Source of the DNA: Tepidimicrobium xylanilyticum
GTDB lineage: Bacteria > Bacillota > Clostridia > Tissierellales > Tepidimicrobiaceae
Direction: 5' to 3'
DNA: 64,000 nt
Assembly (NCBI RefSeq): GCF_900106765.1
Contig: NZ_FNNG01000002.1
Span: 248,001-312,000, forward strand
In this document: one piece after another, positions 17,422 to 41,089 of the stretch
How the letters are laid out: each line of letters starts with the position of its first letter
How positions within the stretch are numbered: the stretch's first letter is position 1
The notes under the pieces: model-generated
The model's input: only the letters and a program-made list of their open reading frames with translations
Told to the model about the DNA's origin: nothing
Databases searched by the model: none
Made by a program: the position numbers and the translations under genes

Positions 17422-18729
17422 TCATCTTTCCTTTTCTATCCTATCAAGTAAATAGTTAAGGGCCTTCATATTACCTAAGAAATTAATATGCGAATAAGCA
17501 GCTAATACATTTTTATATCCATATCCACATTGCCAACTTCTTTCACTTTTAGCCTTTTTTATATCAAATAAGGGCCTGTCTTCTATCTCTATAGCAGAAC
17601 GGTGGAATTCATTAGCTTTTAACCTCTCTCCTTTTTTGCCTAATATAGTATCCTCCCTCAGCCTAATATTTGAATATCCAAATCTTTGGAGCCTATCCGT
17701 CATATGGGCCTTCCCTTTTAATATACCTACCATAGGATATCCTTCTATGTCCTCAACTAAATACATGAATCCGCCAGATTCGGCATATATATGTCCTCCT
17801 TCTTCTGCCATTTTTCTAATGGAGTTAATCATAGTTTTATTTTGAGAAAGTTCTTCTTTATATAGTTCTGGATATCCTCCACCAATATAGAGTAAATCGA
17901 ATTTTGGCACTTCCTTATCCTTTATGGGAGAAAAGTATTCTACGTCACAGATGTTTTCCAGAAGTTTTAAATTCTCACTATAGTAGAATAAAAAAGCTTC
18001 ATCATAGGCTATGGCAACCTTAATATCCCTTTTCTTTGGATATTGATAGTCACTTACTTTCAAGTCCTTCATTAACTTGATTATGCCATCTAGATCTACA
18101 GTTTTAACCAGGATTTCTGCAGTTCTTTCGATTATTCCCTCAGCATCTTTATTTTCCATGCTTTGGACTAATCCACGGTATCCCTCTCCTAAATTAAGTT
18201 CTTCGTGACTTTCTATATAGCCTAATACCTTTATGCCAATATGTTCTTCTACTATTTCTTTTAACAGCACATAGGTTGACTTATTTACCTTATTAAAGAT
18301 GATACCCTTTATTTTTGATTTTGGAAAATCAACCATACCTTTAATTTTGGGAACGACTGAAAACATCTCTCCCTTAGGTGTATAAACAAGAATGGCATTT
18401 ATATTTAACATATTAGATATATGGTAACTAGAATTTTCAAAGGTATTGTATATTCCATCAAAATAGCCCATTGCCCCTTCTACCACGCCATATTCCCCTT
18501 TGTTCATCGATATAGCTTTTTCTATTCCTTCCTCTCCCATCATATGCATGTCCAAATTTCCTGCCCTTTTCCTTGAAGCCAAGGCTAAATAGCTAGTATC
18601 AACAAAATCTGGTCCAGCTTTAAAAGCTGACACATCTAATCCCCTATTTTTAAAAGCTCTAATTAGACCAAGGGTAATTAAAGTCTTACCTTCATTGCTT
18701 TGAGGAGCTGTAATCATTATGGTCTTCAT
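17422..18729 (-). CDS. cbiA: Cobyrinate a,c-diamide synthase with Ser in place of the catalytic Cys
   Basis: 435 residues. The N-terminal DTBS-like synthetase domain is normal: an SNEGKT P-loop, FKAGPDFVDTSYL and VVEGAMGYFDG. It activates the acetate a and c side chains of cobyrinate with ATP for amidation. The C-terminal class I glutaminase-like domain keeps its fold signals (LLYIGGGYPEL, then YSHINF with the catalytic-type His). But the nucleophile block reads YAESGGFMYL, where the family has Cys: residue 318 is Ser, codon TCT at 17778-17776, one base from TGT. A Cys-to-Ser change in such domains normally abolishes glutamine use while ammonia-driven synthesis can remain. It overlaps cobD by four bases. 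Confidence 0.92.
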   Translation of the reverse strand: MKTIMITAPQSNEGKTLITLGLIRAFKNRGLDVSAFKAGPDFVDTSYLALASRKRAGNLDMHMMGEEGIEKAISMNKGEYGVVEGAMGYFDGIYNTFENSSYHISNMLNINAILVYTPKGEMFSVVPKIKGMVDFPKSKIKGIIFNKVNKSTYVLLKEIVEEHIGIKVLGYIESHEELNLGEGYRGLVQSMENKDAEGIIERTAEILVKTVDLDGIIKLMKDLKVSDYQYPKKRDIKVAIAYDEAFLFYYSENLKLLENICDVEYFSPIKDKEVPKFDLLYIGGGYPELYKEELSQNKTMINSIRKMAEEGGHIYAESGGFMYLVEDIEGYPMVGILKGKAHMTDRLQRFGYSNIRLREDTILGKKGERLKANEFHRSAIEIEDRPLFDIKKAKSERSWQCGYGYKNVLAAYSHINFLGNMKALNYLLDRIEKER

Positions 18730-19778
18730 ATTATTTCCTCCAATTCTTTAAAGGTTTCAATTAACTTTATGTTGCTGTTTCTATCTTTTATGGCTACTCT
18801 TATATAAGTATTGTCCAATCCATTAAAACTTGAACATTTTCTAATTATCAAGCCCCTTTTTAAGAAAAACTCAAATACATAATCTTCCTTCCATTTCAAC
18901 AATTTTATAAGTATATAATTGCTGTGGGTTGGATAAGGCCTAATCCCTTGGATTTTAGCCAGCCTACCTAACAAAAAATTCCTTTCTCTTTCCATATAAT
19001 CTTGGCTCTTCTTTATATAATCCTTACATTTGAAAATATACCTACCAACCCTATCCGCTAAAGCATTAACGCTCCAGGGCAGTTCTACTTTTTCATATTT
19101 TTCTTTAATATCTTTAGATACACAAGCATAACCTAAGCGGATACCTGGAAGGCCAAAGAACTTTGTAGCAGCCCTGATTATTCCTATATTTTTATAACTA
19201 TCCTTCTTAAATATTTCAATACTATCGTAATCCACTGGACAAAACTCATAAAAAGCTTCGTCTAAAAGCAGGTATCCTTCCTTTTGCTTTACTATTTCAT
19301 ATAGTTTAATTAAAGTTTCTCTTTCTATCCTTAAGCCTGTTGGATTATTGGGATTCCCCAGAACCAGTAGAGCTTTATGGTTTACTACCTTTTCTATGGA
19401 ATCTAAATCTATTGTAAAGTCTTCCTTATATTTTAATCTAATTACTTCCTTATTATGGATTAATGCCCTTTCTTCATATTCAGAAAAGGAAGGTAGAATA
19501 ACTATTATTCTAGGATAGATTTGAGTGAAATTGTCTATTATGTCCACCGCACCATTACCTACTACCACATTTTCCATATCACAGTTTAAATACTTAGATA
19601 TGCTGGATTTAAGACACCTATACTTTATATCTGGATAACTTGTCATATGGGATAAACTATTTATTAATTCCTTTTCCAAGCCTTCTGGAAATCCCAAGGG
19701 GTTTATGTTACTGCTAAAGTCTATTAATTCTCCCTCATAATATTTTTTATAGCTTATCAAATCTCCGCCATGTCTCAT
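18726..19778 (-). CDS. cobD: L-threonine-O-3-phosphate decarboxylase (aminotransferase class I/II fold)
   Basis: 350 residues, PLP-dependent. CobD makes (R)-1-amino-2-propanol phosphate, the linker joining the corrin ring to the nucleotide loop. It has the MRHGGDL start of the family, FSSNINPLG, LGNPNNPTG, LLDEAFYEF, and the PLP lysine in RAATKFFGLPGIRLGY. It sits between cbiB and cbiA, the usual neighbours. Histidinol-phosphate aminotransferase is the nearest paralogue, but the RHGGD start and context favour CobD. Confidence 0.9.
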   Translation of the reverse strand: MRHGGDLISYKKYYEGELIDFSSNINPLGFPEGLEKELINSLSHMTSYPDIKYRCLKSSISKYLNCDMENVVVGNGAVDIIDNFTQIYPRIIVILPSFSEYEERALIHNKEVIRLKYKEDFTIDLDSIEKVVNHKALLVLGNPNNPTGLRIERETLIKLYEIVKQKEGYLLLDEAFYEFCPVDYDSIEIFKKDSYKNIGIIRAATKFFGLPGIRLGYACVSKDIKEKYEKVELPWSVNALADRVGRYIFKCKDYIKKSQDYMERERNFLLGRLAKIQGIRPYPTHSNYILIKLLKWKEDYVFEFFLKRGLIIRKCSSFNGLDNTYIRVAIKDRNSNIKLIETFKELEEII

Positions 19779-19782
19779 TTTT

Positions 19783-20718
19783 TCACCTGCCTAAAATGTA
19801 TATTGCTACATAAAGCAATAAAAGTAATATTTCACTGCTATACATAATCTCAATGGTCCGTTTAATATCTTCCCTATTAGCCTTTCTAATCCTATCCCCT
19901 ATAGTTGGCTTTTTTACCACCTGACCAAAATAAGAACTTTCGCCTCCTAACTGTATATTTAGAAGTCCTGCCACTGCTCCTTCTGGATAAGGTGCATTAG
20001 GGCTTTTATGGTTCTTTCTATCCCTTATCATTATCTTTAATCCATTTTTTACATCAAACCTAAATATTGAGGATATACACATTAAAGAACCTGTAAGCCT
20101 AGCAGGAATATAGTTAAATAAATCATCAACCTTTGCTGGAAAAAAGCCTAGGTCCATATATTTTTCACTTTTATATCCAAGCATAGAATCCATAGTATTC
20201 ACCATCTTATACATCAAACCACCTGGAGCTCCCAATAGCATAATATAGAATAAGGGTGCAATTACTCCATCGGAAGTATTTTCCCCCACAGTTTCTATAG
20301 CAGCCCTTATTATTTCTTCTTCTGAAAGGTCATTGGTGTCCCTTCCCACTATAAAGGAAAGTTTATATCTAGCGGATTCAAGGCTTTTCCCCAGGGCATA
20401 ATATACCTTCATTGCTTCTTTGTCTAAACATCTGGCTGCAATGCAGGTGTATATAAGGTATATGTTTATAATCTTATATAGTGTTTTATATTTCTCTATA
20501 TCTTTTAATATTAAATGAGGCACAATAAAAGCAAGGGAAATATTTAAAACTACTATTAAGAAACCTCCAAATTTTAGATTTTTACTCTTCACTTTAAAAA
20601 CTTTTCTCACTATCTTTTCTTCAAAAGATATCAGCCTTCCCATTAGCCTAACAGGATGAGGGAAAGTTTGAGGATCCCCTATTATCCAATCCAATATTAC
20701 TGCTGTTAATATTTCCAT
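19783..20718 (-). CDS. cbiB: Adenosylcobinamide-phosphate synthase
   Basis: 311 residues, integral membrane protein. CbiB attaches aminopropanol phosphate to adenosylcobyric acid. Hallmarks are DWIIGDPQTFPHPVRLMGRLI at the N-terminus, GRDTNDLSEEEIIRAAIETVGENTSDGVIAPLFY and the late SPNAPYPEGAVAGLL block. It begins eight bases after cbiP. No anomaly. Confidence 0.93.
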   Translation of the reverse strand: MEILTAVILDWIIGDPQTFPHPVRLMGRLISFEEKIVRKVFKVKSKNLKFGGFLIVVLNISLAFIVPHLILKDIEKYKTLYKIINIYLIYTCIAARCLDKEAMKVYYALGKSLESARYKLSFIVGRDTNDLSEEEIIRAAIETVGENTSDGVIAPLFYIMLLGAPGGLMYKMVNTMDSMLGYKSEKYMDLGFFPAKVDDLFNYIPARLTGSLMCISSIFRFDVKNGLKIMIRDRKNHKSPNAPYPEGAVAGLLNIQLGGESSYFGQVVKKPTIGDRIRKANREDIKRTIEIMYSSEILLLLLYVAIYILGR

Positions 20719-20726
20719 AATCTCAC

Positions 20727-21569
20727 CTAATCCAATTTAAGCAAAGAATATACATAATCCATATTTAAGTTTTCCCTTACTACTTTAGAAAGCTTCTTAA
20801 ATTCTTCTTCCAACTCTTCCTCTTCCTGAAAAGTGTGATTACAAACTTTGTCATAATCCATTAAAGAATCTTCGTCTACTAATTCCAATGGAGTAAAAGG
20901 AACAGTTCCTATTACGGGTATATTTAATAGATTTTCTATCATTTCAATTCCTGGGTCTAAAAGTCTTTTATCCCCTCTGAATTTATTAATAATAAGACCT
21001 CTAATTCTCTTTCTTTCCTCTTCTTCCAAAAGCATGACTGTACCATAAAGGGATGCAAATACCCCTCCCCTATCTATATCTGCTACCAATAGTACTGGTG
21101 CATCTGCCATTTGTGCCATTCCCATGTTTACAATGTCATTTTCTTTTAAGTTTATCTCTGCCGGACTGCCTGCTCCTTCTAAAACTACAATATCGTATTC
21201 TTCTTCAAGTTGTTTGTAGATTTTTTTAACCATAGACCTCAATCCGTTTTTATAAGAAAAATATTCTATAGCATCCATATTTTTGTATAATTGTCCTTTT
21301 ATAAATACATGGCTTCCTTTATCTGAAGAAGGTACAAGTAATATAGGATTCATATTGGGATTTGGCTTGATGCCCGCAGCCATAGCTTGTAGGGCTTGAG
21401 CAGTGCTTATTTTATATCCTTCTTCCGTTTCATAATATTTAGAAGACATATTCTGGGATTTAAAGGGTGCTACCCTATATCCATCTTCTTTGAATATCCT
21501 ACATAGCGCAGTACATATAAAGGATTTTCCTGCTGAGGATGTAGTACCTTGAATCATAATGTTCGCCAT
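20727..21569 (-). CDS. cbiP: Cobyric acid synthase lacking its glutaminase domain
   Basis: 280 residues, against about 500 in the family. The synthetase half is complete: [13 protein letters not shown]-loop, [44 protein letters not shown] and INKFRGD. After GTVPF...VDEDSL (about residue 236) the whole class I glutaminase domain of some 220 residues is absent. Yet the very end, from about residue 255 ([21 protein letters not shown]), is the family's normal C-terminal helix. This is an in-frame internal deletion, not a truncation. The block after SQNM ([12 protein letters not shown]) also departs from the usual GRAQ. Ammonia-dependent amidation of four side chains is the functional reading; loss of function is the alternative. 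Confidence 0.9.
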
Positions 21570-21585
21570 TTTTTACCTCCATATT

Positions 21586-22761
21586 TCAAATCATATCTAC
21601 CAGTTGGTTTAATAGGGATGAAATAGAAAAATGCTTTATCACATCTAAATCCATTTCTTCTTCCCTTAATGAAAGAATCTTTACCCCTTCTTGGGATGCA
21701 AAGCGAAGTAGTTCATAATTTCCTCTATTAATTCCTTTCAAACTAACTCCAGAATCTACAACAGCTTGACAATTCTCTATATACCTTTTGGCTTTATCTA
21801 CCTTATCATATCCAATATCAATAAAACCTTCTTCTTCTATAGTCTCGTAAGCGAGGATCTTTGAAATATTATAATCTATGTCATTTTTGAATAATATGCC
21901 GCTATAAAAGCCAATTCCCTTTTTATTCAAAGCCCTATATATTTTAGTAGCCTTTCCACCTCCACCAATTACAAAAACTTTTGGAGAGTTTTCATTCCTT
22001 GACAGTTCAATGTTTCCTATAGTCGTATTATAAGAATAACCATTTAGTCCGTAAACTCTTTTTATGGATTCATCGGTTATTACATCTTCTGGTGTTCCAT
22101 ATCTATATATTTCGCCATCTTTAATAAGCATTACCTTATCGGCTATTTTGGGCACTAGGTCAATTTCATGTAAGGACATGATTATGGTTTTACTCTTTTC
22201 CAGAGAAAGTCTAGCTAGTACATTCAATAGATCCACTTTGAATCTAATATCCAAATAGGAAGTAGGTTCGTCTAATACCATAATATCTGCTTCTTGACAA
22301 ATAGCCCTCGCAATCATAATCCTTTGTTTTTCTCCATCGCTTAGTGCTTTAAATTCCTTATATCTTAAACACTGGCCATCAACAATGTCTATGGCTTCAT
22401 CGATAACCTGCCAATCCCTTTTAGTCAATTTGCCAAAATAATTGGTGTAAGGATACCTGCCTGTTGCCACTACTTCTTCAGCTATCATCATATTGGGCGC
22501 AATCTTTTCCGTTAACACTATGGACATTTCCTTAGCCCTATCCTTTAGAGATGAACCCTCTAAATCCCTTCCCAATACGGTAATTGAACCATGAAGTCGC
22601 TTTATATGGTCTATTATTGTTTTTAATATTGTAGATTTCCCACAACCATTGGGTCCTAATAAGCATAGTATTTCTCCTCGCTTTAAATCCATATTTATAT
22701 CCTTAACTACAGTTCTTTGCCCATATCCTACGTTTAAATCCCTAGTTGAAAAAAATATCAT
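21586..22761 (-). CDS. Corrinoid ABC importer ATPase with an extra C-terminal domain
   Basis: 391 residues. Residues 1-255 are a BtuD/FecE ATPase: GPNGCGKSTI Walker A, LSDGEKQRI signature, IMVLDEPTSYLD Walker B and the H-loop SLHEID. Residues 260-391 form a separate domain beginning KVFVIGGGGKATKIYRALNKKG, which looks like a Rossmann-type nucleotide or ligand loop, with conserved Asp and Cys (ENCQAVVDSGVSL). The extra domain is not a standard ABC part and its function is unknown; a regulatory or corrinoid-binding role fits the context. It overlaps the permease gene by four bases and lies 16 bases before cbiP. Confidence 0.85.
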   Translation of the reverse strand: MIFFSTRDLNVGYGQRTVVKDINMDLKRGEILCLLGPNGCGKSTILKTIIDHIKRLHGSITVLGRDLEGSSLKDRAKEMSIVLTEKIAPNMMIAEEVVATGRYPYTNYFGKLTKRDWQVIDEAIDIVDGQCLRYKEFKALSDGEKQRIMIARAICQEADIMVLDEPTSYLDIRFKVDLLNVLARLSLEKSKTIIMSLHEIDLVPKIADKVMLIKDGEIYRYGTPEDVITDESIKRVYGLNGYSYNTTIGNIELSRNENSPKVFVIGGGGKATKIYRALNKKGIGFYSGILFKNDIDYNISKILAYETIEEEGFIDIGYDKVDKAKRYIENCQAVVDSGVSLKGINRGNYELLRFASQEGVKILSLREEEMDLDVIKHFSISSLLNQLVDMI

Positions 22762-23774
22762 ATGGCCTTCCTCCTATTTATCATCATGTAAATGACTATA
22801 GGTGCTCCTATAAAAGAGGTTACAGTACTGATATTTAACTCTATAGGAGAAAATATCCTTCTAGCAAAATAATCTGACAATAGACAAAAGCTAGAGCCTA
22901 GCAAAAATATCCCCGGAATAAGAGCCTTAGGCCGTGAAGTATTCATCATCAATCTGGTTAAATGGGGAACAGCAATGCCTACGAAAGAAATGGGACCTGC
23001 AAAAGCTGTAACACATGCAGAAAGAATACTGGATAAAGTTATTAAGATTATTCTAAATACCTTAATATTTATCCCCATACTCTTAGCATAGCTTTCCCCT
23101 AATAAGTATCCTTCTAAGGGTTTTGATAATAAAAAAGTCAATATAACTGTGGGAATTATGATGATAAGGGAGAATTTTATCATACTCCAGGTTGCTCCAG
23201 AAAAACTTCCCATAGACCATAGCGTAAGGTTTGCAATCTTTTCTTGTTCTGCAAAAGTAATCATGAGGTTTGTCCCAGCCGATGCTATATATCCAAGCAT
23301 TATTCCAACTACAACTAATGTGGAAACATCTTCTATCTTTCTTGCAAATACTAATACTAAAACCATAGATAATATACTGCCTACAAAAGAAGCTATAAAA
23401 ATTCCAAATATCCCTGCATCAAATATTTTTAATCTAAAATTTGTAAGAATAAAAATTCCAACGAAAAACCTCGCTCCTGATGATACACCAAGGACGTAAG
23501 GGCCTACTATAGGGTTTCTAAAGAAGGTTTGTAGTAAAAATCCGGATATACCCAATGCGCCTCCAAATAATAGACCACAAACTATCCTTGGAATTCTAAT
23601 TTTATATAGGATATTATACTCTAAAGTAGATAAATTCCTATTTTTTAACAAGATATCTTTTAAATCCTTTAATGTAAAATGGATGGAACCAGATATCATA
23701 TTTATTATAATGGAAAATATTAGAAACATTGTTAGAGTAACTAGTATCAATATAGCTCTTTTGTTTTTGTCCAT
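22758..23774 (-). CDS. btuC: Corrinoid ABC importer permease (BtuC/FecCD family)
   Basis: 338 residues, about ten membrane helices. Visible family blocks are RIPRIVCGLLFGGALG, FFRNPIVGPYVLGVSSGARF and GPISFVGIAVPHLTRL for the ATPase-coupling loop. It follows the lipoprotein gene by 32 bases and overlaps the ATPase gene. The cobalamin riboswitch upstream and the cbi genes downstream make a corrinoid the likely cargo. Confidence 0.88.
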   Translation of the reverse strand: MDKNKRAILILVTLTMFLIFSIIINMISGSIHFTLKDLKDILLKNRNLSTLEYNILYKIRIPRIVCGLLFGGALGISGFLLQTFFRNPIVGPYVLGVSSGARFFVGIFILTNFRLKIFDAGIFGIFIASFVGSILSMVLVLVFARKIEDVSTLVVVGIMLGYIASAGTNLMITFAEQEKIANLTLWSMGSFSGATWSMIKFSLIIIIPTVILTFLLSKPLEGYLLGESYAKSMGINIKVFRIILITLSSILSACVTAFAGPISFVGIAVPHLTRLMMNTSRPKALIPGIFLLGSSFCLLSDYFARRIFSPIELNISTVTSFIGAPIVIYMMINRRKAI

Positions 23775-23806
23775 AGTATCTCCTCAATCTGTTCTTTTTA
23801 TATTTC

Positions 23807-25003
23807 CTATTCCATTAAGAAAAAGTATTCTGTTTCGGTAATTTGTCCATGGGGAGTGGTAAATATGGTATAAAGATCTTCAATCATATCTGCTACTCGG
23901 TCAGCATGTTGGAAATAATGAGGCTTATATCCCCATACCCGTCCTTCTCTCACCGCTTTAATATCCGCAAAGTATTCAGCACTAGATTTTAAATCATCTA
24001 TACATTGAATGCCACGACCAAGCCTATTGTTATAGAATAATATATCTGCATCTTCAATGCTCTTATACAGTTCTTCAGCATTCATCTTGCTATTCCCATC
24101 TTGGTCTGGGTTTAAATCACTTAAAATATATTCTCCACCAGCCAATTCAAGCATCTTCACCTCATAATCTCCTTTATTTCTTACATAGTATATGTCATTA
24201 GCTAGGAAAAAGGATGCGAATTTTTCCCTTTGTCCTTCTAAATTTGCTATCTTTTGTTCTATTTCTTCAATCTTTTTAAGCTGGACATCAAAAAATTCTG
24301 CTGCTTCTTCCTCTTTGTCAAATAAGGCTCCCATTAATTTTATCCATTCCAGTCTGCCTCTAGGGTCTGATTCCCTTTGGCTACCCCGAGATATCCACTT
24401 AATTCCCAATTCATCAAACTTTGCTGCAACCTCATCGGTGCCATGGCCTGTCCCAGTTGTAATCAATACTATGTCGGGTTTTATAGATTGTATAAGTTCG
24501 TAGTCTGGAGCACTATTTCTTCCTACATATGTAATCCTTCCTTCTTCCATTCCTTCCTTTACCTCTTGAATATGCCAATCGTCCATCTCAGTAGTAACTA
24601 GAGTTATCTTATCTAATAAACCTAAGGGTCTTAATTCGGCAGCAGCAGTCGTTGCAAATACACCTACCGATTCTATAGGCAATTGAATAACATTTATATC
24701 GGCTTTCAAATCAGGAACTTCCTTGCCTTCAGGAATCAATAAAGTCTTTCTACCATTCCATTCGGTTATTATTTTGTAACCACCTTCGTAATAATCCACC
24801 GAAAAGGATTTTGCATATTTTAGTTCCATTTCACCAATATGGACTAATCCAGTATCCTCATCTACATTCCTCTTTATAGCTTCTTCAACATCTTCTTGAG
24901 AACTTATAACCTCATCTTTCTCCTGGCTTTTACAGCCTGTTAGCATTAATAGCAATACCAATGTTACTAAAATTACCCTGATAAAAATGTTTCTTCTAAC
25001 CAT
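23807..25003 (-). CDS. btuF: Corrinoid ABC importer binding lipoprotein
   Basis: About 398 residues. A signal peptide ends in the lipobox LTGC, so it is a membrane-anchored lipoprotein on the outer face. The mature part has the two-lobe periplasmic-binding layout of the BtuF/FecB class: VGVFATTAAAELRPLGLLDKI in the first lobe and SIKPDIVLITTGTG. It is longer than a usual BtuF, with an N-terminal extension of about 80 residues. Start at ATG 25003, eight bases after AGGAG. It is the first gene behind the riboswitch at 25136-25285. Confidence 0.85.
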   Translation of the reverse strand: MVRRNIFIRVILVTLVLLLMLTGCKSQEKDEVISSQEDVEEAIKRNVDEDTGLVHIGEMELKYAKSFSVDYYEGGYKIITEWNGRKTLLIPEGKEVPDLKADINVIQLPIESVGVFATTAAAELRPLGLLDKITLVTTEMDDWHIQEVKEGMEEGRITYVGRNSAPDYELIQSIKPDIVLITTGTGHGTDEVAAKFDELGIKWISRGSQRESDPRGRLEWIKLMGALFDKEEEAAEFFDVQLKKIEEIEQKIANLEGQREKFASFFLANDIYYVRNKGDYEVKMLELAGGEYILSDLNPDQDGNSKMNAEELYKSIEDADILFYNNRLGRGIQCIDDLKSSAEYFADIKAVREGRVWGYKPHYFQHADRVADMIEDLYTIFTTPHGQITETEYFFLME

Positions 25004-25056
25004 ATCCACCTCTCCTTTACCTTTTGTAAATATACATTAACTCACCAATATATAAG

Positions 25057-25077
25057 CCCTACCTTCGAAAGGTAGGG
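25057..25077 (-). terminator. Riboswitch-linked terminator hairpin
   Basis: CCCTACCTTTCGAAGGTAGGG on the minus strand, between the cobalamin riboswitch and the btuF start. A second stem (CCTTCGGAGGGAAGG, near 25103-25121) just upstream may take part in the switch. The T tract is weak, CTTATAT. Confidence 0.55.
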
Positions 25078-25135
25078 GAATTTTAAGCACAAAAATAAGC
25101 CTAGCCTTCCCTCCGAAGGTTGGTTAGCTATAAAC

Positions 25136-25285
25136 ATTAGGCAGGTCTCCTGACTTTTGGTCATCCTACTTTCAACGCCTTCCCGAGACAGTCTCAGTGG
25201 CATAAGTTGATTTCGTCCCAATTACAGTAGCGGGGGCTGTACTGGATTTTCACCAGTTTCCCTTTTAATCCATAAGGAACCTAAT
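25136..25285 (-). ncRNA. Cobalamin riboswitch 1
   Basis: The minus strand carries the standard B12-element blocks in order: GGTTCC, AAAAGGGAA, GGTGAAAATCCAGTACAGCC, CCGCTACTGTAA, GATGCCACTG-type segment (ATGCCACTG), GGGAAGG, GATGACCAAAAGTCAGGAGACC and the closing GCCTAA. It precedes btuF and the main cbi operon. Its promoter at 25314-25342 and the riboswitch itself are close copies of those at 35001-35217, and the riboswitch is also close to that at 32449-32596. Confidence 0.95.
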
Positions 25286-25313
25286 ATTTACAATATTGAA
25301 CTTTCCAATCTTG

Positions 25314-25342
25314 ATTCTATCATAGTCCAAATTTTGATGCAA
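25314..25342 (-). promoter_or_regulatory. Promoter of riboswitch 1 and the btuF-cbi operon
   Basis: TTGCAT (25342-25337), 17-base spacer, TAGAAT (25319-25314) on the minus strand. The same boxes and nearly the same spacer occur before riboswitch 3. The remaining part of the 25010-25521 gap shows no gene. Confidence 0.65.
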
Positions 25343-25521
25343 CAATTCTCAACAGACTTCCAGCATAAGGGAATTTGCTTTTTGATTTATATCATTACTA
25401 TATTTTACATAGGGCTTTTAACTTAAGAAAACATCTTTCCAGTAACAATTGGAATAATAACAATTTAATTTTTGCTCAATCTATAAATTTAATAAATTCA
25501 CCAATGCCCCTATTATCCAAA

Positions 25522-26244
25522 TTATCCTATATGATACCCTCTTGGAGTTATCATTTTATTACCTTTCACATATGTATTGCTATTTCCTATTATTAATATA
25601 CTTAACATATCCACTTTTTCATAAGGAATGCTCTGTAAAGTAGTTAATATTATTTCTGTATTAGCACGACCAGAATTTCTAACTATTCCAACAGGAGTAT
25701 CTTTTTCTTTATATTTTAACATTATTCTCACTGCTTTTTCTAAATGATTTCTCCTGCTATTGCTTCTAGGATTATATATTGTTATTACAAAATCCCCTTC
25801 TGAAGCTTTCTCAATCCTTTTTTCAATAGCCTCCCAAGGAGTCAGTAAATCACTAAGGCTAATAGAAGCAAAATCATGCATAATAGGTGAACCCAGTTCG
25901 CTGGCTGCAGAAAAAGCTGCTGTAACCCCTGGAACTATCTCTACCTCTATTTCTTCTTTTAATTCCAATATGGGTCCAGCCATACCATAAAGCCCAGCAT
26001 CTCCAGTTGAAATTATGGCAGTATTATGTCCTTCTTTTGCTTTTCTTATTGCCAATTTACATCTATCTATCTCTCCCTTCATTCCTGTAGAATAAATTTG
26101 CTTTCCTTCAATTAAATCCCCTAGATACCCTATGTAAGGGGTATATCCAATAATAATATCACATTTTTTTATAGTTTCTATGGCCTTTAAGGTCATATGC
26201 TCTCTGCCTCCTGGCCCTATACCAATTACATACAACTTAGACAT
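25522..26244 (-). CDS. cbiH: Cobalt-factor III / precorrin-3B C17-methyltransferase
   Basis: 240 residues, tetrapyrrole methylase. CbiH methylates C17 and contracts the ring. It begins LYVIGIGPGGREHMTLKA, then IIGYTPYIGYL, STGDAGLYGMAGP, EIVPGVTAAFSAASELG and FVITIYNPRS, all diagnostic of CbiH/CobJ. It lacks the C-terminal extension found in some CbiH proteins. It is the last gene of the upstream cobalamin operon, ending about 240 bases before the riboswitch 1 aptamer. Confidence 0.93.
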   Translation of the reverse strand: MSKLYVIGIGPGGREHMTLKAIETIKKCDIIIGYTPYIGYLGDLIEGKQIYSTGMKGEIDRCKLAIRKAKEGHNTAIISTGDAGLYGMAGPILELKEEIEVEIVPGVTAAFSAASELGSPIMHDFASISLSDLLTPWEAIEKRIEKASEGDFVITIYNPRSNSRRNHLEKAVRIMLKYKEKDTPVGIVRNSGRANTEIILTTLQSIPYEKVDMLSILIIGNSNTYVKGNKMITPRGYHIG

Positions 26245-26344
26245 ATCTTACCTCCTTTGATGCTAGGCTTTCAGTATATTTGAGTATATTGGCCTTTTTA
26301 GTAATTACCGAAAATGGATACACATTTGGCTGATCTCAATAAAT

Positions 26345-27007
26345 CTAATCATTGTCTTTCTTCCTTCCTAGGATAAGGGACATATAATCTTTATCATTTA
26401 TTATTTCTTCTTTGTCAGTAAGTACATGTTCATCTTCTAGGCTTACCCTTTTTACATACGTATAATTAAAGCCCTTTCCATCCAATGACTCTAATATTGC
26501 TTCTTTATCCCTTAATGTCTTTAATATACATAATGTATCTGTATCATCCAATAATTCCTCACAAAATTCATCCATCAATAAAAATTTATCCCCTTTAATT
26601 ACCAAAGGAATTTTCGTTTGAGCAGCTGCTGCAATAAATGATGGTATTCCCGAGATAATATCTATTTGAATTTCCCTTTTCTCTAATTCGTTCATGAGAT
26701 ATATAAAGGTGCTATATATCATAGGATCTCCTATGGTTAAATAGACTCCACATTTGCCTTCTGGAATTAAATCATGGATTGTGTCAGCTACATCAGTATA
26801 ATCTTGCTTTGTAACCTTCCCCATTGGAAAATTCAGTAATATGACCTTTTTATCTTGCACATATTCCTTAACAGTATCTAAAGCCATATTTTTTCCCTTA
26901 TTATGCGGAGCAAAGATTATATCAGCTTCTCTAATCCTTTTTACTGCTTTTATGGTCAGTAATTCCTTATCACCTGGACCTGTACCTATAGCATATAATA
27001 TTTTCAT
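26345..27007 (-). CDS. cbiL: Cobalt-factor II / precorrin-2 C20-methyltransferase
   Basis: 220 residues, tetrapyrrole methylase. CbiL adds the C20 methyl group. Motifs are LYAIGTGPGDKELLTIKAV, YLTIGDPMIYSTFIYL and IISGIPSFIAAAAQ. It precedes cbiH by 100 bases and follows the btuD-like ATPase gene. Confidence 0.92.
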   Translation of the reverse strand: MKILYAIGTGPGDKELLTIKAVKRIREADIIFAPHNKGKNMALDTVKEYVQDKKVILLNFPMGKVTKQDYTDVADTIHDLIPEGKCGVYLTIGDPMIYSTFIYLMNELEKREIQIDIISGIPSFIAAAAQTKIPLVIKGDKFLLMDEFCEELLDDTDTLCILKTLRDKEAILESLDGKGFNYTYVKRVSLEDEHVLTDKEEIINDKDYMSLILGRKKDND

Positions 27008-27109
27008 TATTACACCCCTTTAACTTAAACTATGGACCAATCCCCATTAATACTTTATCATCCATATAAGAAGCAATACTTCCACACAACCATTCAATAC
27101 ATACATCTT

Positions 27110-27889
27110 TTAATTTGCCTTATAGGGTATAAAATAGGGACAACGGTTTATTTCATCTCGATATATGTGACCTTTCACGTTAAACACCTCTTTTAGCAAT
27201 CTTTCATTTAAAACTAAATTGGGATTATTATACTCCCATATTTGTCCATCCTTTAATACCAATATACTGTCTGAAAACCTAAATGCTTGATTTAAATCAT
27301 GCAACACCATTAAAACCGTTAAACCCAAAGTTTCATTCAGTTCCTTAACCAATTGTAATATTTCTAGTTGATAGGATATATCCAAAAACGTAGTAGGTTC
27401 ATCTAATAACAATATTTCTGGTTGCTGAGCTAGGGACATGGCTAACCATGCCCTTTGTTGCTCTCCACCAGATAAAGTGGCTAAATGTCTATCTTTCAAT
27501 TTTACTATTCCAGTTTTTTCAATAGCCCAATCTATTATTTCATAATCTTTTTTTCCCAACCTTTGTCCAAATTTTAAGCGGGGGTATCTACCATAAGAAA
27601 CTAGTTCCCTTACAGTAATATCGTTAGGAGTGTTTTTAAATTGGGGAAGGATAGCCATCCTTTTTGCTACTAACTTAGTTGGCAATCTTAATATATTTTC
27701 ATCTTCAAGATAAACATTACCCTTTGCAGGTTTTATACACCTAGACAAAACCTTTATTAAAGTAGATTTTCCTGAACCATTAGGTCCTATTATGCTTACT
27801 ACTTGGCCTTTTTCTACCTTTAAGCATATATCCTTTAATATTTCTTTTTCTCCATAGTTTACATAAAGATTTTCTGCCCTTATGACCAT
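27110..27889 (-). CDS. Corrinoid/iron-type ABC importer ATPase
   Basis: 259 residues, FecE/BtuD class: GPNGSGKSTL Walker A, LSGGEQQRAW signature, ILLLDEPTTFLD Walker B and VLHDLNQ H-loop. It lies between the binding protein at 27918 and cbiL, with no permease gene in between. The orphan permease at 33886-34860, also behind a cobalamin riboswitch, is the natural missing partner (inference). Confidence 0.88.
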   Translation of the reverse strand: MVIRAENLYVNYGEKEILKDICLKVEKGQVVSIIGPNGSGKSTLIKVLSRCIKPAKGNVYLEDENILRLPTKLVAKRMAILPQFKNTPNDITVRELVSYGRYPRLKFGQRLGKKDYEIIDWAIEKTGIVKLKDRHLATLSGGEQQRAWLAMSLAQQPEILLLDEPTTFLDISYQLEILQLVKELNETLGLTVLMVLHDLNQAFRFSDSILVLKDGQIWEYNNPNLVLNERLLKEVFNVKGHIYRDEINRCPYFIPYKAN

Positions 27890-27917
27890 GTATTCACCTT
27901 CTTCCCATAAAACCTCT

Positions 27918-28934
27918 CTACTTAAAAATATCAGGATAAAGTATTTCTGCTAATCCTTTATAAGCTTCTGCATATCTATGATTTGGTTTATACATATATA
28001 AATCTTTTGGCAAGAATATATATCTATCCTCCTTTACTGCTTTTAATGAACTCCAGGCTGGGTTATCTTCCACATCTTTTTTAAGTCTTTCTAATATCTT
28101 TTCTTTATCAAAACCACTAGTTTGTACAAATATAAAATCTGGATCTTCTTCTAACACTTTTTCCATACTAAAGGCTATTGCTTCAGGTCCTGTAGCTACT
28201 GAATCGGATATATTAGTAGTATGTAAATCTTTTAACATCTCTCCTACTGTAGTATCAGAACTCCTTGCGGTAATACGCTTTGCAGTAGCCATCATCAATA
28301 AAATTTTATAATTCCTGTCCTTTGGTGCCCTTTCTATTATTTCTTCTATATCCTTCCTAACTTTAACTGCGTATTCTTCATATAAGTCATCCCTTCCATT
28401 TATGGCTGTAAATATCCTTGCCATTTTAAAATAATCATCCTTTGTGAAATAATTTAATGCTATAATATCAATACCATTTTGTTCAAAAATAGGTACTAAG
28501 TCCATTTGGTGTTTTTGATTGGAATTTAAAATTACCAAATCCGGTTCTAAAGATAATACTTTCTCCACACTTATCGCTCCCTGCCTACCTACTGTTTCAA
28601 CATCTCTGGCTTCTTCTACTACTTTTTCTGCCGCTTCCTCCAGTCTCCCAACAACAGCACCTCCAGATTTGCACCAAACTTCAAGATAAGAATTAAACAA
28701 TACTACTACCCTTTTCGGATATTTAGAGATAGTCACCACTTCTCCTCTTCCATCTTCAAATGTGACGGAATCCTCATTAATTTCTATGCCATATTTTATT
28801 TCTTCCTCTTCTGCCTGTCCACCATTTACTTCCTTTGATCCTACGTTAGTTTCCAAATCTTGTTTATTAAAACAAGCAGTAAATAAAAATAAAACTAAAA
28901 TCAATAACAATGAAACCAATACCTTCCTCCTCAT
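27918..28934 (-). CDS. ABC importer binding lipoprotein (BtuF/FecB class)
   Basis: 338 residues with a lipoprotein signal ending FTAC. The mature protein contains PKRVVVLFNSYLEVW, ISVEKVLSLEPDLVILNSN and an AEAYKGLAEILYP tail typical of corrinoid or siderophore binding proteins. It sits between cbiK and the ATPase in the cbiMNQO operon, so a corrinoid or cobalt-related ligand is likely. Confidence 0.85.
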   Translation of the reverse strand: MRRKVLVSLLLILVLFLFTACFNKQDLETNVGSKEVNGGQAEEEEIKYGIEINEDSVTFEDGRGEVVTISKYPKRVVVLFNSYLEVWCKSGGAVVGRLEEAAEKVVEEARDVETVGRQGAISVEKVLSLEPDLVILNSNQKHQMDLVPIFEQNGIDIIALNYFTKDDYFKMARIFTAINGRDDLYEEYAVKVRKDIEEIIERAPKDRNYKILLMMATAKRITARSSDTTVGEMLKDLHTTNISDSVATGPEAIAFSMEKVLEEDPDFIFVQTSGFDKEKILERLKKDVEDNPAWSSLKAVKEDRYIFLPKDLYMYKPNHRYAEAYKGLAEILYPDIFK

Positions 28935-28946
28935 TTTCCCCTCCTG

Positions 28947-29723
28947 TCAATCCATTATCTTTTCTATATGCTGCAAGTAAATATCTTGTATTTCTCTCAA
29001 TTGACCTAATCCTTCAAGTATTCCTTCTACATTAAACCCTTCCTTTTCTAATATGCTTTTCCACGAATCCTCTTCTTCTGATACCATATCGTTAATTACA
29101 TGATCTCCTGCTACTAACATAAAGGGTCTTAAAAACACCTTTTTAACTCCTTCGTTTTTCAGCTTAGGTATTAAATCTTCAATAGTAATCCTACCTTCTA
29201 CAGTAGCTATAGATACTTTTTCATAACCCTTTTCTCTAAAAATCTTTTCTAATTTATCATATGATATATCTGTTTCATGGCTTGTACCATGCCCCATAAG
29301 TATAATCCATTCATCAGCCTTTACATCTGGTAAATTTAATATTTTAACTATCTTTTCATAATCTTCATCATCATAAAGAAGAGGTTTACCTATTTTGACT
29401 GAACAATCTCTATTATCCTTTATAAACTCTTCTGTCTGTCTTAGTATTTTTTCATATTCATAACCTGATAATATATGAAGAGACTGAATGTATATTTCCT
29501 CTATTCCATCGTTTTTCATCTCTTCTAAGGCTTCTCTTATGTTGTTCACATTATAATTATCCCTTTTTTTAAGTTTGTTAATTACCATCTGAGATGTAAA
29601 AGCTCTCAATACTAAAAAATCCTTATATTTTTCCCTAACTCTATTTTCTATGCTTTCAATACATAGTTTTCTAGTCTCCTCGTAAGTTGTACCAAAACTA
29701 GCTACTATAATCCCCTTTTTCAT
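28947..29723 (-). CDS. cbiK: Sirohydrochlorin cobaltochelatase
   Basis: About 258 residues. CbiK inserts cobalt into sirohydrochlorin, the first committed anaerobic step. VASFGTTYEETR opens the protein. The metal-handling histidines are in ILMGHGTSHETD and VAGDHVINDM. Start at ATG 29723, where GGAAAGG precedes it; the longer reading begins inside cbiO. Directly downstream of the cobalt importer genes cbiMNQO, so metal uptake and insertion are co-expressed. Confidence 0.92.
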   Translation of the reverse strand: MKKGIIVASFGTTYEETRKLCIESIENRVREKYKDFLVLRAFTSQMVINKLKKRDNYNVNNIREALEEMKNDGIEEIYIQSLHILSGYEYEKILRQTEEFIKDNRDCSVKIGKPLLYDDEDYEKIVKILNLPDVKADEWIILMGHGTSHETDISYDKLEKIFREKGYEKVSIATVEGRITIEDLIPKLKNEGVKKVFLRPFMLVAGDHVINDMVSEEEDSWKSILEKEGFNVEGILEGLGQLREIQDIYLQHIEKIMD

Positions 29724-30519
29724 AATCCTTTCCTTTCCATTGAAATAATTGTTTTTCATTTTTACATAATGGTAGGCCTAATTCTTGATGGGCTTTCACT
29801 AGCCAAGGTCTTTCCAAACATGCTTTTTTCAATAAATCATCCCTTAGAAATACATCTTCTGGTGATCCTTCACCCAATATTTCTCCCTTTCCCAAAATAT
29901 AAACATAATCACAAACTTCATAGATTAAATCCATATCATGGCTAGATAATACTATTTTCTTTTCTTGACTAAGTTCTTCTATTATCCTTTTTACCTCTTT
30001 AGTCATGTAAGGATCTAATCCATTTGTAGGCTCATCTAACAATATTAAATCCAAATCCATTGCTAAGATCCCAGCTATAGAAATTCTCTTTTTCTCGCCA
30101 TAACTTAAAAAATGTGTAGGCTTATCTTTTAAATCATAGGCATTTACCATCTTTAAAGCCTTCTCAACTTTTTTTACAACTTTTTCTTCACTCAAACCTA
30201 AATTCCTCAAGGGAAAAGCCACATCATCATATACCTTGGAGAAAAATAACTGCTTATCTGGATCTTGAAAAACCATATTTACCTTTTTTCTATACTGTCT
30301 CAAAAATTTCTTATTGTATTTTATAGTTTTATCCTTGTATTTTATCTGTCCTTTAGTGGGTTTTAATATACCTATAATACTTAAAAAAAGAGTAGATTTG
30401 CCAGAACCATTGGCTCCAACAACCCCAATAGTATTTCCTTTTTCTAAATCCAAATTAATATTTTTTAAAGCCTCTGTTCCATCCTCATATTGATATTCCA
30501 ATGATTCTATCTTTATCAT
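29698..30519 (-). CDS. cbiO: Cobalt ECF importer ATPase
   Basis: 273 residues. Walker A GANGSGKSTL, Q-loop MVFQDPDKQLFF, signature LSYGEKKRISIAG and Walker B LILLDEPTNGLD follow the ECF A-subunit pattern. With CbiQ and CbiMN it powers cobalt uptake. Its ATG follows cbiQ without a gap and its end overlaps the start of cbiK. Confidence 0.93.
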   Translation of the reverse strand: MIKIESLEYQYEDGTEALKNINLDLEKGNTIGVVGANGSGKSTLFLSIIGILKPTKGQIKYKDKTIKYNKKFLRQYRKKVNMVFQDPDKQLFFSKVYDDVAFPLRNLGLSEEKVVKKVEKALKMVNAYDLKDKPTHFLSYGEKKRISIAGILAMDLDLILLDEPTNGLDPYMTKEVKRIIEELSQEKKIVLSSHDMDLIYEVCDYVYILGKGEILGEGSPEDVFLRDDLLKKACLERPWLVKAHQELGLPLCKNEKQLFQWKGKDYEKGDYSS

Positions 30520-31203
30520 CTAATCACCTATTTTAAATTCTCCAGTGTATAATTTGGTATCTAAAGAAATTACCATATCCTTATATCGAATTAATAGTCT
30601 AATAAATAAACATTTTATGAGTAAAGCTATAGATTTATAGCTATTTTTCATATTGATATAGCCAAACTTCATCTCTTGAGCCATTATTATATCTTTGGAT
30701 TCTTCTAAAAGAGTAAATATAAACCTATAAATCAGCAGCACTAGTTCTATTAAGGTATTTGGGATTTTAAGCTTTTTAAGCACCCTTATTATGTCGTTTA
30801 ATGGAGTTGTAAGTCCTAAAAAAAGTGTGGAACTAATTGCAGCTAAAACCCTTATTCCAACTTTTATAGATCCCTTTAAAGATTCGTAATTGGTCCCTAG
30901 GTATTTGCCCCATATTTTAATACTCCAAATAAACCTATTTTCCTCAGAAAAGCTCAATAATAAAGTTACAATGCTAATTATTAAAAAAATAGTAGGTATG
31001 ACCATTAACTTGCAATATTTATTCCATGGAATTTTAGCAGCAAATATGGTTAAAAAGACCATAAGCATAAATAAAAATAAATTAATATATAAATTGTCTA
31101 AAATTGTGGCAATCAACAAGGTCCCTATGACAAAGATAAACTTTGTCATAGGGTTAAAGTTTGCCAATCTATTAGTATATGCATACTTATCTATTAACAG
31201 CAA
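30520..31203 (-). CDS. cbiQ: Cobalt ECF importer transmembrane T subunit
   Basis: 227 residues, four to six membrane helices. It has the CbiQ start ([18 protein letters not shown]), NDIIRVLKKLKIPNTLIELVLLIYRF and the late MAQEMKFGY coupling region. Start codon TTG 31203 after GGAGAAACG. It overlaps cbiN slightly. Confidence 0.9.
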   Translation of the reverse strand: MLLIDKYAYTNRLANFNPMTKFIFVIGTLLIATILDNLYINLFLFMLMVFLTIFAAKIPWNKYCKLMVIPTIFLIISIVTLLLSFSEENRFIWSIKIWGKYLGTNYESLKGSIKVGIRVLAAISSTLFLGLTTPLNDIIRVLKKLKIPNTLIELVLLIYRFIFTLLEESKDIIMAQEMKFGYINMKNSYKSIALLIKCLFIRLLIRYKDMVISLDTKLYTGEFKIGD

Positions 31204-31480
31204 TTTTTCGTTTCTCCTTCATCATTCCAAATATATATCCAATAGCTCCCGCACCAATGGCCACCTGTAAGGAAAACAACAAACTCTCTATTTCACTGCT
31301 TGGTGGTTCCCATATGGCATCAAACCAAGGTTCATAATCTGGATTTATCTCTGTTATAACTCCTTCTGCTTGACCATCGGCTCCTTCAAATTCTGCATCT
31401 TTTTTTATAAACAAAGGAGTTATAACCATAACAATAGCTAATAGTATAAGTAAAAGATTTGTTTTATTCAATAGTTTCAA
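31187..31480 (-). CDS. cbiN: Cobalt importer accessory subunit CbiN
   Basis: About 98 residues with two membrane spans, one near each end, and the intervening extracellular stretch [21 protein letters not shown]...PPSSEIES, which is typical of CbiN. TTG 31480 is chosen as start, since AAGGGGAGA precedes it; an ATG at 31504 without a ribosome site is the alternative. CbiN assists CbiM in loading cobalt. Confidence 0.88.
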
Positions 31481-32195
31481 TATGAATCTCCCCTTCCTTA
31501 CCATATTCAGCTAATAAATTATAGACTATAGCAGTTATTATTCCTTCTACTATTGCTAGAGGAATTTGAGTAACAGCAAATACAGATAAAAACTTTCCTA
31601 AAGATCCAACAAAGCCTGTTATGGAATCAGGAAATGCTAAAGATAGTTGGATTGCAGTTACCACATAAGTCATTAAGTCTCCTAAAAATGCTGCTAGAAA
31701 TACGGGAAAAGTCGTATTCCCATTTTTGTTTTTTAATAGTTTAAAAACACTATAAGATATTATAGGACCAACTATTGCCATGGAAAAAGTATTAGCACCT
31801 AAAGTCGTTAGCCCTCCATGAGCCAATAATAATGATTGAAACAATAAAACTATCAATCCTACTACCGTCATTGTGGTAGGTCCAAACAATATGGCCCCTA
31901 AACCTACTCCTGTTGGATGAGAACAACTCCCTGTTACGGAAGGTATCTTTAATGCAGATAGTACAAATACAAAACCTCCTGCTAATCCTATAAGTACTTT
32001 TTGATTTGCATCCCCCTTAAATATTCGGTGTATCTTTTTAAAACCTATAACAATAAACGGCAAAGATGCAATCATCCAAATAACTGACCATTTAACAGGG
32101 AGAAAACCTTCCATAATATGCATAGCTTGCCCAATACCTGGACTTAAAAACATAAGTAGTAGAATAGATAGGAACAACTTTGTACTGTTTTTCAT
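31464..32195 (-). CDS. cbiM: Cobalt ECF importer substrate-binding S subunit
   Basis: About 243 residues with seven or so membrane helices. After a signal-like first helix it has [10 protein letters not shown], the cobalt-coordinating N-terminal motif exposed by processing. [18 protein letters not shown] and [16 protein letters not shown] are the other hallmarks. Start at ATG 32195, eight bases after GAGAGG. First gene after riboswitch 2 and the strong terminator at 32301-32335. Confidence 0.93.
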
Positions 32196-32300
32196 AAAAC
32201 TCACCTCTCTTTTTTGTTTTTAGGTCAAATTACCTCCCAAATTTATTAAAAAAGTAATGTTAAAAAATAAGAAAACTTATAATTTTGATAGGCTAAAAAT

Positions 32301-32335
32301 AAATAGTCCCTAACCTTCTTGGTTAGGGACTATTT
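32301..32335 (-). terminator. Expression-platform terminator of riboswitch 2
   Basis: A 15-bp perfect stem (AAATAGTCCCTAACC and its complement) with a 5-base loop, followed by TTTTT in the minus direction. It lies between riboswitch and cbiM. Confidence 0.85.
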
Positions 32336-32448
32336 GATAGTATAATTTAAATATGATCATAATCAAAAACATAAAATACAAAACATAAAACATAACCATA
32401 TTTAAAAGTATAAGTTTTCCCTTCCCACCGAAGGTTACTTAAAAACGA

Positions 32449-32596
32449 CTAGGCAGGTCTCCTGACTTTTGGTCATCCTACTATCAACGCCTTCCCGAGA
32501 TAATCTCAGTGGCATATGTTGATTTCGTCCCAATTACAGTAGCGGGGGCTGTACTGGATTTTCACCAGTTTCCCTTTTAATCTAATAGAACCTAGC
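32449..32596 (-). ncRNA. Cobalamin riboswitch 2
   Basis: Same block order as riboswitch 1 on the minus strand and almost base-identical across the core from AGGTTCTATTAG to GGAGACCTGCC. It controls cbiMNQO-cbiK-btuF-btuD-cbiL-cbiH. Its promoter lies at 32738-32766, about 140 bases upstream. Confidence 0.95.
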
Positions 32597-32737
32597 GTTT
32601 GTAATATTTAGTTTTCGTTTTTTATTTTATTACTTCACCCATATTAAGGTATTTTTCTTTGTCGTTTTTCGGGTAAATTTCTTTAATGCTTTTTAAGTTT
32701 ATTATGGAGATTTTTGCCCATTCTCGCTTCAACACAA

Positions 32738-32766
32738 ATAATATAATAATTTAGTTGTATTGTCAA
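32738..32766 (-). promoter_or_regulatory. Promoter of riboswitch 2 / cbiM operon
   Basis: TTGACA (32766-32761), 17-base spacer, TATTAT (32743-32738) on the minus strand. It diverges from the pdxS promoter. Nothing else was recognised in the 32597-32896 gap except the sites listed. Confidence 0.75.
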
Positions 32767-32798
32767 TAAATTATTTTCATGTTTATGCTTCAATATAT

Positions 32799-32810
32799 TG
32801 TATGCATACA
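32799..32810. promoter_or_regulatory. Palindrome TGTATGCATACA between cbiM and pdxS promoters
   Basis: A perfect 12-bp palindrome 13 bases upstream of the pdxS -35 box. It could be an operator for a pyridoxal-responsive or other regulator; none is encoded nearby. Confidence 0.35.
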
Positions 32811-32823
32811 CTATATTGATACG

Positions 32824-32853
32824 TTGACATTATATATACACTTTTGATATTAT
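32824..32853 (+). promoter_or_regulatory. pdxS promoter
   Basis: TTGACA (32824-32829), 18-base spacer, TATTAT (32848-32853). The pdxS ATG is at 32897 with GGGGG ahead of it. Confidence 0.65.
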
Positions 32854-32896
32854 ATAGATACACCAAAAACTGTATTTATGAAAAGGGGGATGCTTT

Positions 32897-33757
32897 ATGG
32901 TTAAACTAAAATCAATAAATGAAAAGCTTGCAGGTGGTGTTATAATGGATGTTGTGAATGTCGAGCAAGCTAAAATTGCTGAAAGTAGCGGTGCAGTTGC
33001 TGTTATGGCATTAGAAAGAGTTCCTTCAGATATTAGAAAAGATGGCGGAGTTGCTAGAATGTCAGACCCTAAGTTAATAGAAGATATATTAGAAGCTGTA
33101 TCCATTCCAGTAATGGCAAAAGTCAGAATTGGTCATTTTGTTGAAGCACAAATTCTCGAATCTTTAGGTGTGGATTACATAGACGAAAGTGAAGTCTTAA
33201 CACCAGCAGACAATAATTACCACATAAATAAAAAAGCTTTCAATACACCTTTTGTTTGTGGGGCAAGAAATTTAGGAGAAGCACTAAGACGCATAGGTGA
33301 AGGTGCATCAATGATAAGAACAAAAGGAGAAGCTGGTACTGGAAATATAGTTGAAGCAGTAAAACATATGAGAACAATGATGTCACAAATAAGACAGTTA
33401 GAAAATATGCCTAGAGAAGAGCTTATGAGCTTTGCTAAAAAAATAGGTGCTCCTTATGACCTGGTGGTATATGTTGCTGAAAATGGTAAATTACCAGTGT
33501 TAAATTTTGCAGCAGGTGGAATCGCTACTCCAGCAGATGCTGCCTTAATGATGCAATTAGGTTGTGATGGTATTTTCGTCGGTTCAGGTATTTTTAAATC
33601 TCAAAATCCAGAAAAAAGAGCAAAAGCCATTGTTAAAGCTGTCCAAAATTATAATAATCCAAAAATATTAGCTGAAGTTTCAAAAAACCTAGGGGAAGCT
33701 ATGATAGGATTGGAAATTAACGATATCCCTAAAGAATACCTGTTTGCAAAAAGATAA
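32897..33757 (+). CDS. pdxS: Pyridoxal 5'-phosphate synthase subunit PdxS, without adjacent pdxT
   Basis: 286 residues, nearly full length. PdxS builds PLP from ribose 5-phosphate, glyceraldehyde 3-phosphate and ammonia. The two catalytic lysines are in MAKVRIGH and [30 protein letters not shown] and [19 protein letters not shown] are intact. The last residues are shorter than in Bacillus PdxS and lack the usual end. The glutaminase PdxT normally follows at once; here a hairpin terminator and a convergent gene follow instead. PdxS is known to work with free ammonia when PdxT is absent. A pdxT elsewhere in the genome cannot be excluded. Confidence 0.95.
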
Positions 33758-34922: not shown

Positions 34923-35000
34923 TTAAATAAATAACGTGCATATAAAAATACCTAATAAAAATAAGCCTAGCCTTCCCTCCGAAGGTTATCCAGCGAAAAA

Positions 35001-35155: not shown

Positions 35156-35188
35156 CAATATTAAATTTTATTAAATTTTCCAATCTTG

Positions 35189-38740: not shown

Positions 38741-38800
38741 GATTAAACAATTTCATTTATAATATAATAATCGTGATAATTATTATAATGCATATGATAT

Positions 38801-41065: not shown

Positions 41066-41089
41066 ATATTATACAATTAAATAATCAAA

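Follow-up and report, generated by a model that had tools for sequence, protein, structure and literature searches.

Amidating synthetases without evident glutaminases in a Tissierellales lineage: probable use of free ammonia as nitrogen donor

Class I glutaminase domains are usually regarded as necessary partners of the amidating synthetases considered here, because free ammonia is thought to be scarce in cells. Carbamoyl phosphate synthetase I of ureotelic vertebrates keeps its glutaminase domain with Ser in place of the Cys and uses ammonia, and dethiobiotin synthetase (BioD), which acts on CO2 and a diamine, is a synthetase of CbiP-like fold without a glutaminase. Here we describe a stretch of 64,000 nucleotides (the window) from Tepidimicrobium xylanilyticum, of the order Tissierellales, which carries cbiA and cbiP, for two cobalamin amidating enzymes, and pdxS, for a subunit of pyridoxal 5'-phosphate (PLP) synthase. 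Considering the window together with the rest of its genome and with related genomes, we think it very probable, as judged from sequence, that the cobalamin, PLP and nucleotide amidating enzymes of this lineage work as ammonia-dependent synthetases. Unlike this lineage, carbamoyl phosphate synthetase I is one mitochondrial enzyme and does not belong to a genome-wide set.

Among described systems, the single-domain NAD synthetase NadE has no glutaminase, and its use of free ammonia in the cell has experimental support (PMC3376133). NadE resembles the enzymes described here in being a synthetase without a glutaminase; its ammonia form has, however, been proposed to be ancestral and concerns one enzyme (PMC3376133), whereas in this lineage several enzymes of the glutamine type seem to have reverted together. 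GMP synthetases of the two-domain and two-subunit types share their ATPPase module with the enzymes of this lineage, and those studied, together with the ATPPase subunit of the two-subunit type, accept external ammonia in vitro (PMC10526850). The described forms have a glutamine amidotransferase (GATase) partner and prefer glutamine (PMC10526850), whereas here the GATase is inactivated, eroded or gone. In described CbiP systems four amides are added, with glutamine as their source (PMC7242693). The genome report on [Clostridium] ultunense, a member of the window's family, describes high tolerance of ammonia, a route through glutamate dehydrogenase and the lack of a high-affinity glutamine synthetase (PMC5924567); the main text of that report contains none of the terms amidotransferase, glutaminase, purine and GMP synth. 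We found no described case of such a coordinated loss in the open literature, as represented mainly by titles and the openings of abstracts, in keeping with a preliminary description of the window, made from its letters alone, which knew of none.

Cobalamin and PLP enzymes of the window

The cbiA gene (17422..18729, minus strand) encodes a cobyrinic acid a,c-diamide synthase of 435 aa, which matches the curated equivalog model NF002204 as a whole protein (390.6 bits, cut-off 254) and is also recognized by Pfam. Its motif YAESGGFMYL has Ser at residue 318 (codon TCT, 17776..17778, minus strand), where intact homologues read AECGG, and the Cys nucleophile of class I glutaminases is consequently missing. 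The GATase_3 domain that has lost its Cys is nevertheless kept (residues 237–419; 17473..18021, minus strand, by Pfam coordinates) and is predicted to fold with confidence: the model has a mean predicted local distance difference test score (pLDDT) of 89, rising to 95 for residues 311–320, and places Ser318 between a strand (313–317) and a helix (319–323). The best matches of the whole model in the PDB were CTP synthase, GatD and HisH, and a sequence search of the PDB with a CbiA profile returned nothing beyond a weak match to MinD.

In the cobyric acid synthase CbiP (280 aa; 20727..21569, minus strand) the glutaminase domain itself has gone. The protein exceeds the cut-off of NF001989 (364.3 bits against 273), covering only positions 2–237 of the 480 in that profile, and lies just above that of TIGR00313 (310.7 bits against 309.9); Pfam finds AAA_26 and the related CbiA nucleotide-binding model in it and no fused GATase_3 (PF07685). 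An alignment with full-length CbiP shows the two in register as far as about residue 237, after which the glutaminase stretch is missing and the match resumes with the C-terminal helix region (20727..20825, minus strand), which the model builds as helices 249–266 and 269–276. The AlphaFold model of this truncated protein has a mean pLDDT of 90 and finds its best PDB match in dethiobiotin synthetase, from which CbiP differs in its substrates and in scoring above the CobQ cut-offs. The third gene, pdxS (32897..33757, plus strand), encodes an intact lyase subunit of PLP synthase (NF003215, 507.2 bits, cut-off 395), and no match to PF01174, the PdxT family, was found anywhere in the window's genome. 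PF01174 was found above its cut-off in 6 of 41 genomes searched, none of them from the window's family, and in 11 of 14 control genomes. The three features singled out in the preliminary description, namely Ser318 in CbiA, a CbiP reduced to its synthetase and C-terminal helix, and a pdxS with no pdxT beside it, are thus borne out by motif and codon, by Pfam and alignment, and by the PF01174 search, which extends the last of them to the whole genome.

Glutaminase losses across the genome and its relatives

The window's genome (G000; relatives are likewise numbered) comprises 3.0 Mb in 38 contigs and is recorded as 100% complete, with 3.56% contamination. By the families searched, it has as class I glutaminase domains one PF07685 (CbiA), two PF00117 (GuaA and PyrG) and one PF13507 (PurL), with no PF01174, and none of them has kept the Cys. 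The GMP synthetase GuaA (G000:C1:92953-94461) reads SIGYG for GICYG, with Gly for Cys; the CTP synthase PyrG (C1:328673-330277) reads GLSLG, with a Ser codon AGT, the other genome of the genus (G001) having GLCLG; and PurL reads LGIGAG for LGICNG and ANPDR for GHSER, so that its Cys-His-Glu triad is not preserved. PF13522 is matched by PurF only, as in seven of the eight other family members searched, and there is no second match that could be a GlmS or AsnB candidate. As a side observation, no GlmS glutaminase domain was found in G000, and NagB running in reverse with ammonia would fit as a route to glucosamine 6-phosphate.

These findings bear on the proposal that a glutaminase of another family acts in trans and feeds the synthetases, glutamine remaining the donor. 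Split enzymes do exist, as in two-subunit GMP synthetase (PMC10526850) and two-subunit NAD synthetase (PMC3376133), and the search for a donor covered PF00117, PF07685, PF01174, PF13507 and PF13522. Against this, neither pdxT nor a stand-alone class I glutaminase (PF01174, PF00117, PF07685) was found in G000, PyrG is the only PF00117 match in four genomes whose GuaA is reduced to the ATPPase (G234, G237, G238 and G239), and glutamine synthetase, too, was not found in G000 or in these four. We therefore regard a supply in trans as very unlikely.

The states of these enzymes were followed through 249 genomes of the order, of which 241 were matched by a GuaA query, 123 by CbiP and 101 by CbiA; residues were read in a subset, with one best frame per genome; frames were dropped if their score against the reference was below 100 bits (CbiA, PurF) or, for the other proteins, below 150 bits. 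GuaA, read in 82 genomes, has Cys in 35 (including G114, scored as Cys despite an eroded motif), no residue in 27, Gly in 16, and Asp, Ala, Glu and Asn in one each. The losses form a graded series. At one end are full-length domains without the Cys (G000, G008, G012 and others); next come frames of 414–437 aa with an eroded domain (G020, G031, G213, G214, G243, G246), and at the other end stand ATPPase-only frames of about 312–338 aa (G227, G230, G231, G237–G239 and others). PurL has Cys in 11 of 38 genomes, Gly in 24, Ser in two and Asp in one, the triad His being gone as well from 22 of the 27 that lack the Cys. PyrG has Cys in 52 of 64 genomes and shows 12 losses, G000 included (Ser 5, Gly 3, Ala 3, Gln 1). 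For PurF, a class II enzyme, 38 genomes gave Cys in 19, Ser in 15 and Gly in three, G230 being unread there and Ser in a separate reading; we also noted its N-terminal Cys replaced by Ser or Gly at several relatives' loci (L430, L436, L439, L441, L488).

Turning to the cobalamin enzymes, the Cys column of CbiP (96 genomes) has no residue in 60, Cys in 34, and Gly and Ala in one each, and the corresponding position of CbiA (79 genomes) has Cys in 34, Gly in 29, Ala in 12 and Ser in four. Of the 45 CbiA proteins without the Cys, 44 retain the presumed catalytic His, which was assigned by alignment with CbiP. Each of the two Ser codons in G000 (TCT in cbiA, AGT in pyrG) is one base away from Cys and the PyrG of the same genus has the Cys, as would be expected if these residues were sequencing or assembly errors, or if Ser could still serve as nucleophile; but 41 of the 45 Cys-less CbiA proteins carry Ala or Gly, which are incapable of that role, and PyrG has lost its Cys in 11 other genomes. 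Error or a working Ser is thus hardly credible as an explanation. As dozens of related genomes share these states, the glutaminase-less condition is more than chance.

Where both proteins could be read (72 genomes), a truncated CbiP accompanies a Cys-less CbiA (Ala, Gly or Ser) in 39 and a Cys-bearing CbiA in seven (of 46 genomes with a truncated CbiP), a full-length, Cys-bearing CbiP accompanies CbiA with Cys in 20 and with Gly in four, and a full-length, Cys-less CbiP accompanies CbiA with Gly in two. Truncation of CbiP and the state of the CbiA Cys are associated (Fisher p 3.6e-7, kinship ignored); strict coupling of the two is ruled out by the seven genomes of the second kind and the four with full-length CbiP and Gly. 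The window's family includes [Clostridium] ultunense DSM 10521 (G012) and Clostridium sp. Cult1 (G017). Of 20 family genomes, seven carry both genes, and in all seven CbiP is short and CbiA lacks the Cys; an intact CbiA together with a full-length CbiP was not seen in the family, the only other genome of the genus in the set (G001) matching neither gene. Within the family Ser318 itself occurs in G000 alone, other members having Ala or Gly. Common inheritance of the residue change and the deletion, raised in the preliminary description, therefore holds in the family for the loss of the Cys, not for the Ser residue, and the two are not strictly linked. Truncated CbiP was also sought among 42 named loci (41 with a CbiP match above 100 bits) by a single-protein query, which reaches close relatives only: seven of the 41 are truncated (L179–L185), these being C. 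ultunense, Clostridium sp. Cult1 and five Tissierellia metagenome-assembled genomes. Two further candidates, L209 and L219, are short because of a contig end, and L220 was dropped as a short match.

Selection on the domains and integrity of the cobalamin cluster

A different account would be pathway decay, in which the cobalamin cluster is disappearing, starting with its glutaminase parts. The preliminary description had held the odd starts of cbiE and cbiJ to favour it. For cbiE (15127..15720, minus strand) the comparison with relatives shows conserved coding that starts further upstream than the listed GTG, in frame -1 relative to the end of cbiD: at the junction (15675–15745, minus strand) cbiD ends in ATGGGGTAG and the conserved start of cbiE has no usual start codon, a possible frameshift or unusual start. 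The same junction is present in three further genomes of two genera (G008, G016, G242), and we have consequently dropped it as a mark of decay. The cbiJ part of the claim stands, since this gene (12036..12782, minus strand) has TGA at codon 3 (MI*IIGGTSES; affected stretch 12774–12782) where four relatives (G012, G016, G017, G031) have TGG, for Trp; the remainder of the frame is open, and the codon is the sole sign of possible damage in G000. Decay could also be read from the 13 of 20 family genomes that have no match to cbiP or cbiA.

The other evidence speaks against decay. In ratios of nonsynonymous to synonymous change (dN/dS) computed with an in-house Nei–Gojobori script, selection was not relaxed on the synthetase parts: values were 0.05–0.22 for CbiP (7 pairs), 0.04–0.26 for the CbiA synthetase domain (8 pairs, the top value resting on a synonymous distance, dS, of 0.01) and 0.03–0.07 for the GuaA ATPPase (7 pairs). 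Since the synthetase domains are under purifying selection, decay of the pathway is unlikely. Moreover, the remaining listed cbi frames are open, the window contains four cobalamin riboswitches, and the same loss has befallen GuaA, PurL and PyrG although these belong to central pathways. The glutaminase-less cluster also seems to have moved recently: the CbiA dS between G012 and G017 is 0.01, against 0.82 for the GuaA ATPPase, which suggests, from sequence comparison, transfer of the cluster between genomes in this form. Taking these points together, we consider decay highly improbable. A synonymous distance of cbiA far below that of guaA was noted for the cobalamin clusters of two pairs, L104/L105 (G012/G017) and L106/L107 (G008/G016), and suggests recent transfer of the glutaminase-less form in both.

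As for the glutaminase domains themselves, Cys-less domains of CbiA have dN/dS of 0.09–0.25 (6 pairs), near the values of two Cys-bearing pairs (0.09 and 0.23), and the domain seems to be retained for its fold. For GuaA the Cys-less domains gave 0.14–0.24 (3 pairs) against 0.12–0.13 in Cys-bearing ones (2 pairs), and the eroded domain of G031 and G214 gave 2.3, on very few changes.

Probable use of free ammonia and the absence of glutamine synthetase from many genomes

We suggest that in these enzymes the acceptor would still be activated by ATP as usual and that free NH3, abundant in an amino-acid fermenter, would attack it directly, in place of NH3 released from a neighbouring glutaminase. 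With high internal ammonia the cell may no longer have needed either glutamine synthetase or the glutaminases; the active-site Cys would then be lost by point change, and erosion or deletion of the domain would follow except where it served a structural role, apparently the case for CbiA. We infer the use of ammonia because glutaminase parts have been lost while synthetase parts survive, because no spare glutaminase of the families searched is present, and because the chemistry is known. The preliminary description had proposed that the lineage moved cobalamin amidation and PLP synthesis to free ammonia; the evidence supports this and widens it to GuaA, PyrG and PurL, with glutamine synthetase missing as well, and the change looks to have been repeated and to span the lineage. 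The broader proposition, that the lineage has largely given up glutamine as a biosynthetic nitrogen donor, does not make free glutamine by glutamine synthetase and uses ammonia for cobalamin, PLP, purines, GMP and (in G000) CTP, with conversion in parallel across enzymes and branches, seems to us evenly balanced between true and false.

A search of 53 genomes for glutamine synthetase (PF00120) gave no match in 34, which include G000, G234, G237, G238 and G239, and a match in 14 of 14 controls; in 5 of the 19 genomes counted as having it (G023, G243, G246, G193, G114) the match is only a frame of about 630–650 aa with a lower score. All 34 genomes without the synthetase have at least one glutaminase loss. 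In these genomes the numbers of lost and kept glutaminases are 31 and 2 for GuaA, 29 and 0 for CbiP, 24 and 3 for CbiA, 22 and 4 for PurL, 11 and 22 for PyrG, and 15 and 10 for PurF; in genomes with the synthetase they are 7 and 12, 8 and 8, 3 and 7, 5 and 7, 0 and 16, and 4 and 9, respectively. Fisher p values for loss against glutamine synthetase run from 1.6e-5 (GuaA) to 0.17 (PurF), with kinship ignored. On a tree of the 53 rows, in which 16 of 50 inner branches are open, the fewest changes are six for glutamine synthetase and three to five for each enzyme.

Several points weigh against a switch to ammonia and against a close tie to the loss of glutamine synthetase. The 53 genomes were hand-picked and are rich in affected ones, and two to four independent pairs per enzyme could be used, for which sign tests on enzymes other than GuaA were not significant and which for PurF fell equally in both directions, so that a tree-corrected test had little power. 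Losses are seen, too, in 9 of the 19 genomes that have glutamine synthetase (G006, G009, G182, G050, G193, G023, G243, G246, G114), so the synthetase need not be lost for a glutaminase to go, and its loss does not clearly come first. Ammonia-rich life may instead have come first, because G182 has glutamine synthetase yet has lost the glutaminases of CbiP and GuaA. In addition, glutamine is the preferred donor of all GMP synthetases studied, the Km for NH4Cl reaching 174 mM (PMC10526850); in seven genomes CbiA retains its Cys beside a truncated CbiP; the profile search that found no spare PF00117 or PF07685 protein in G000 had GlsA and amidases outside its range; and there is the cbiJ stop codon. 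Lastly, the Cys is present in PurF of G000 and in the PyrG of most relatives, including 22 of 33 genomes without glutamine synthetase, so the switch is incomplete and glutamine is probably still used at some steps.

A lineage stripped of glutaminases in several pathways, apparently more than once, amounts to a natural experiment that asks why cells normally take glutamine as donor, and whether intracellular ammonia sets the choice of donor becomes testable. The graded series of Cys lost, domain eroded and domain deleted offers material for the study of ammonia channels and of non-hydrolytic roles of glutaminase domains. Annotation is affected too, given that glutaminase-less proteins score above family cut-offs and receive glutamine-dependent names, and the organisms concerned include a species abundant in high-ammonia biogas digesters.

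Finally, the four cobalamin riboswitches of the window lie at 25123–25299, 32435–32610, 34989–35164 (minus strand) and 41078–41253 (plus strand), and the window also contains an FMN riboswitch at 38795–38911 (minus strand).

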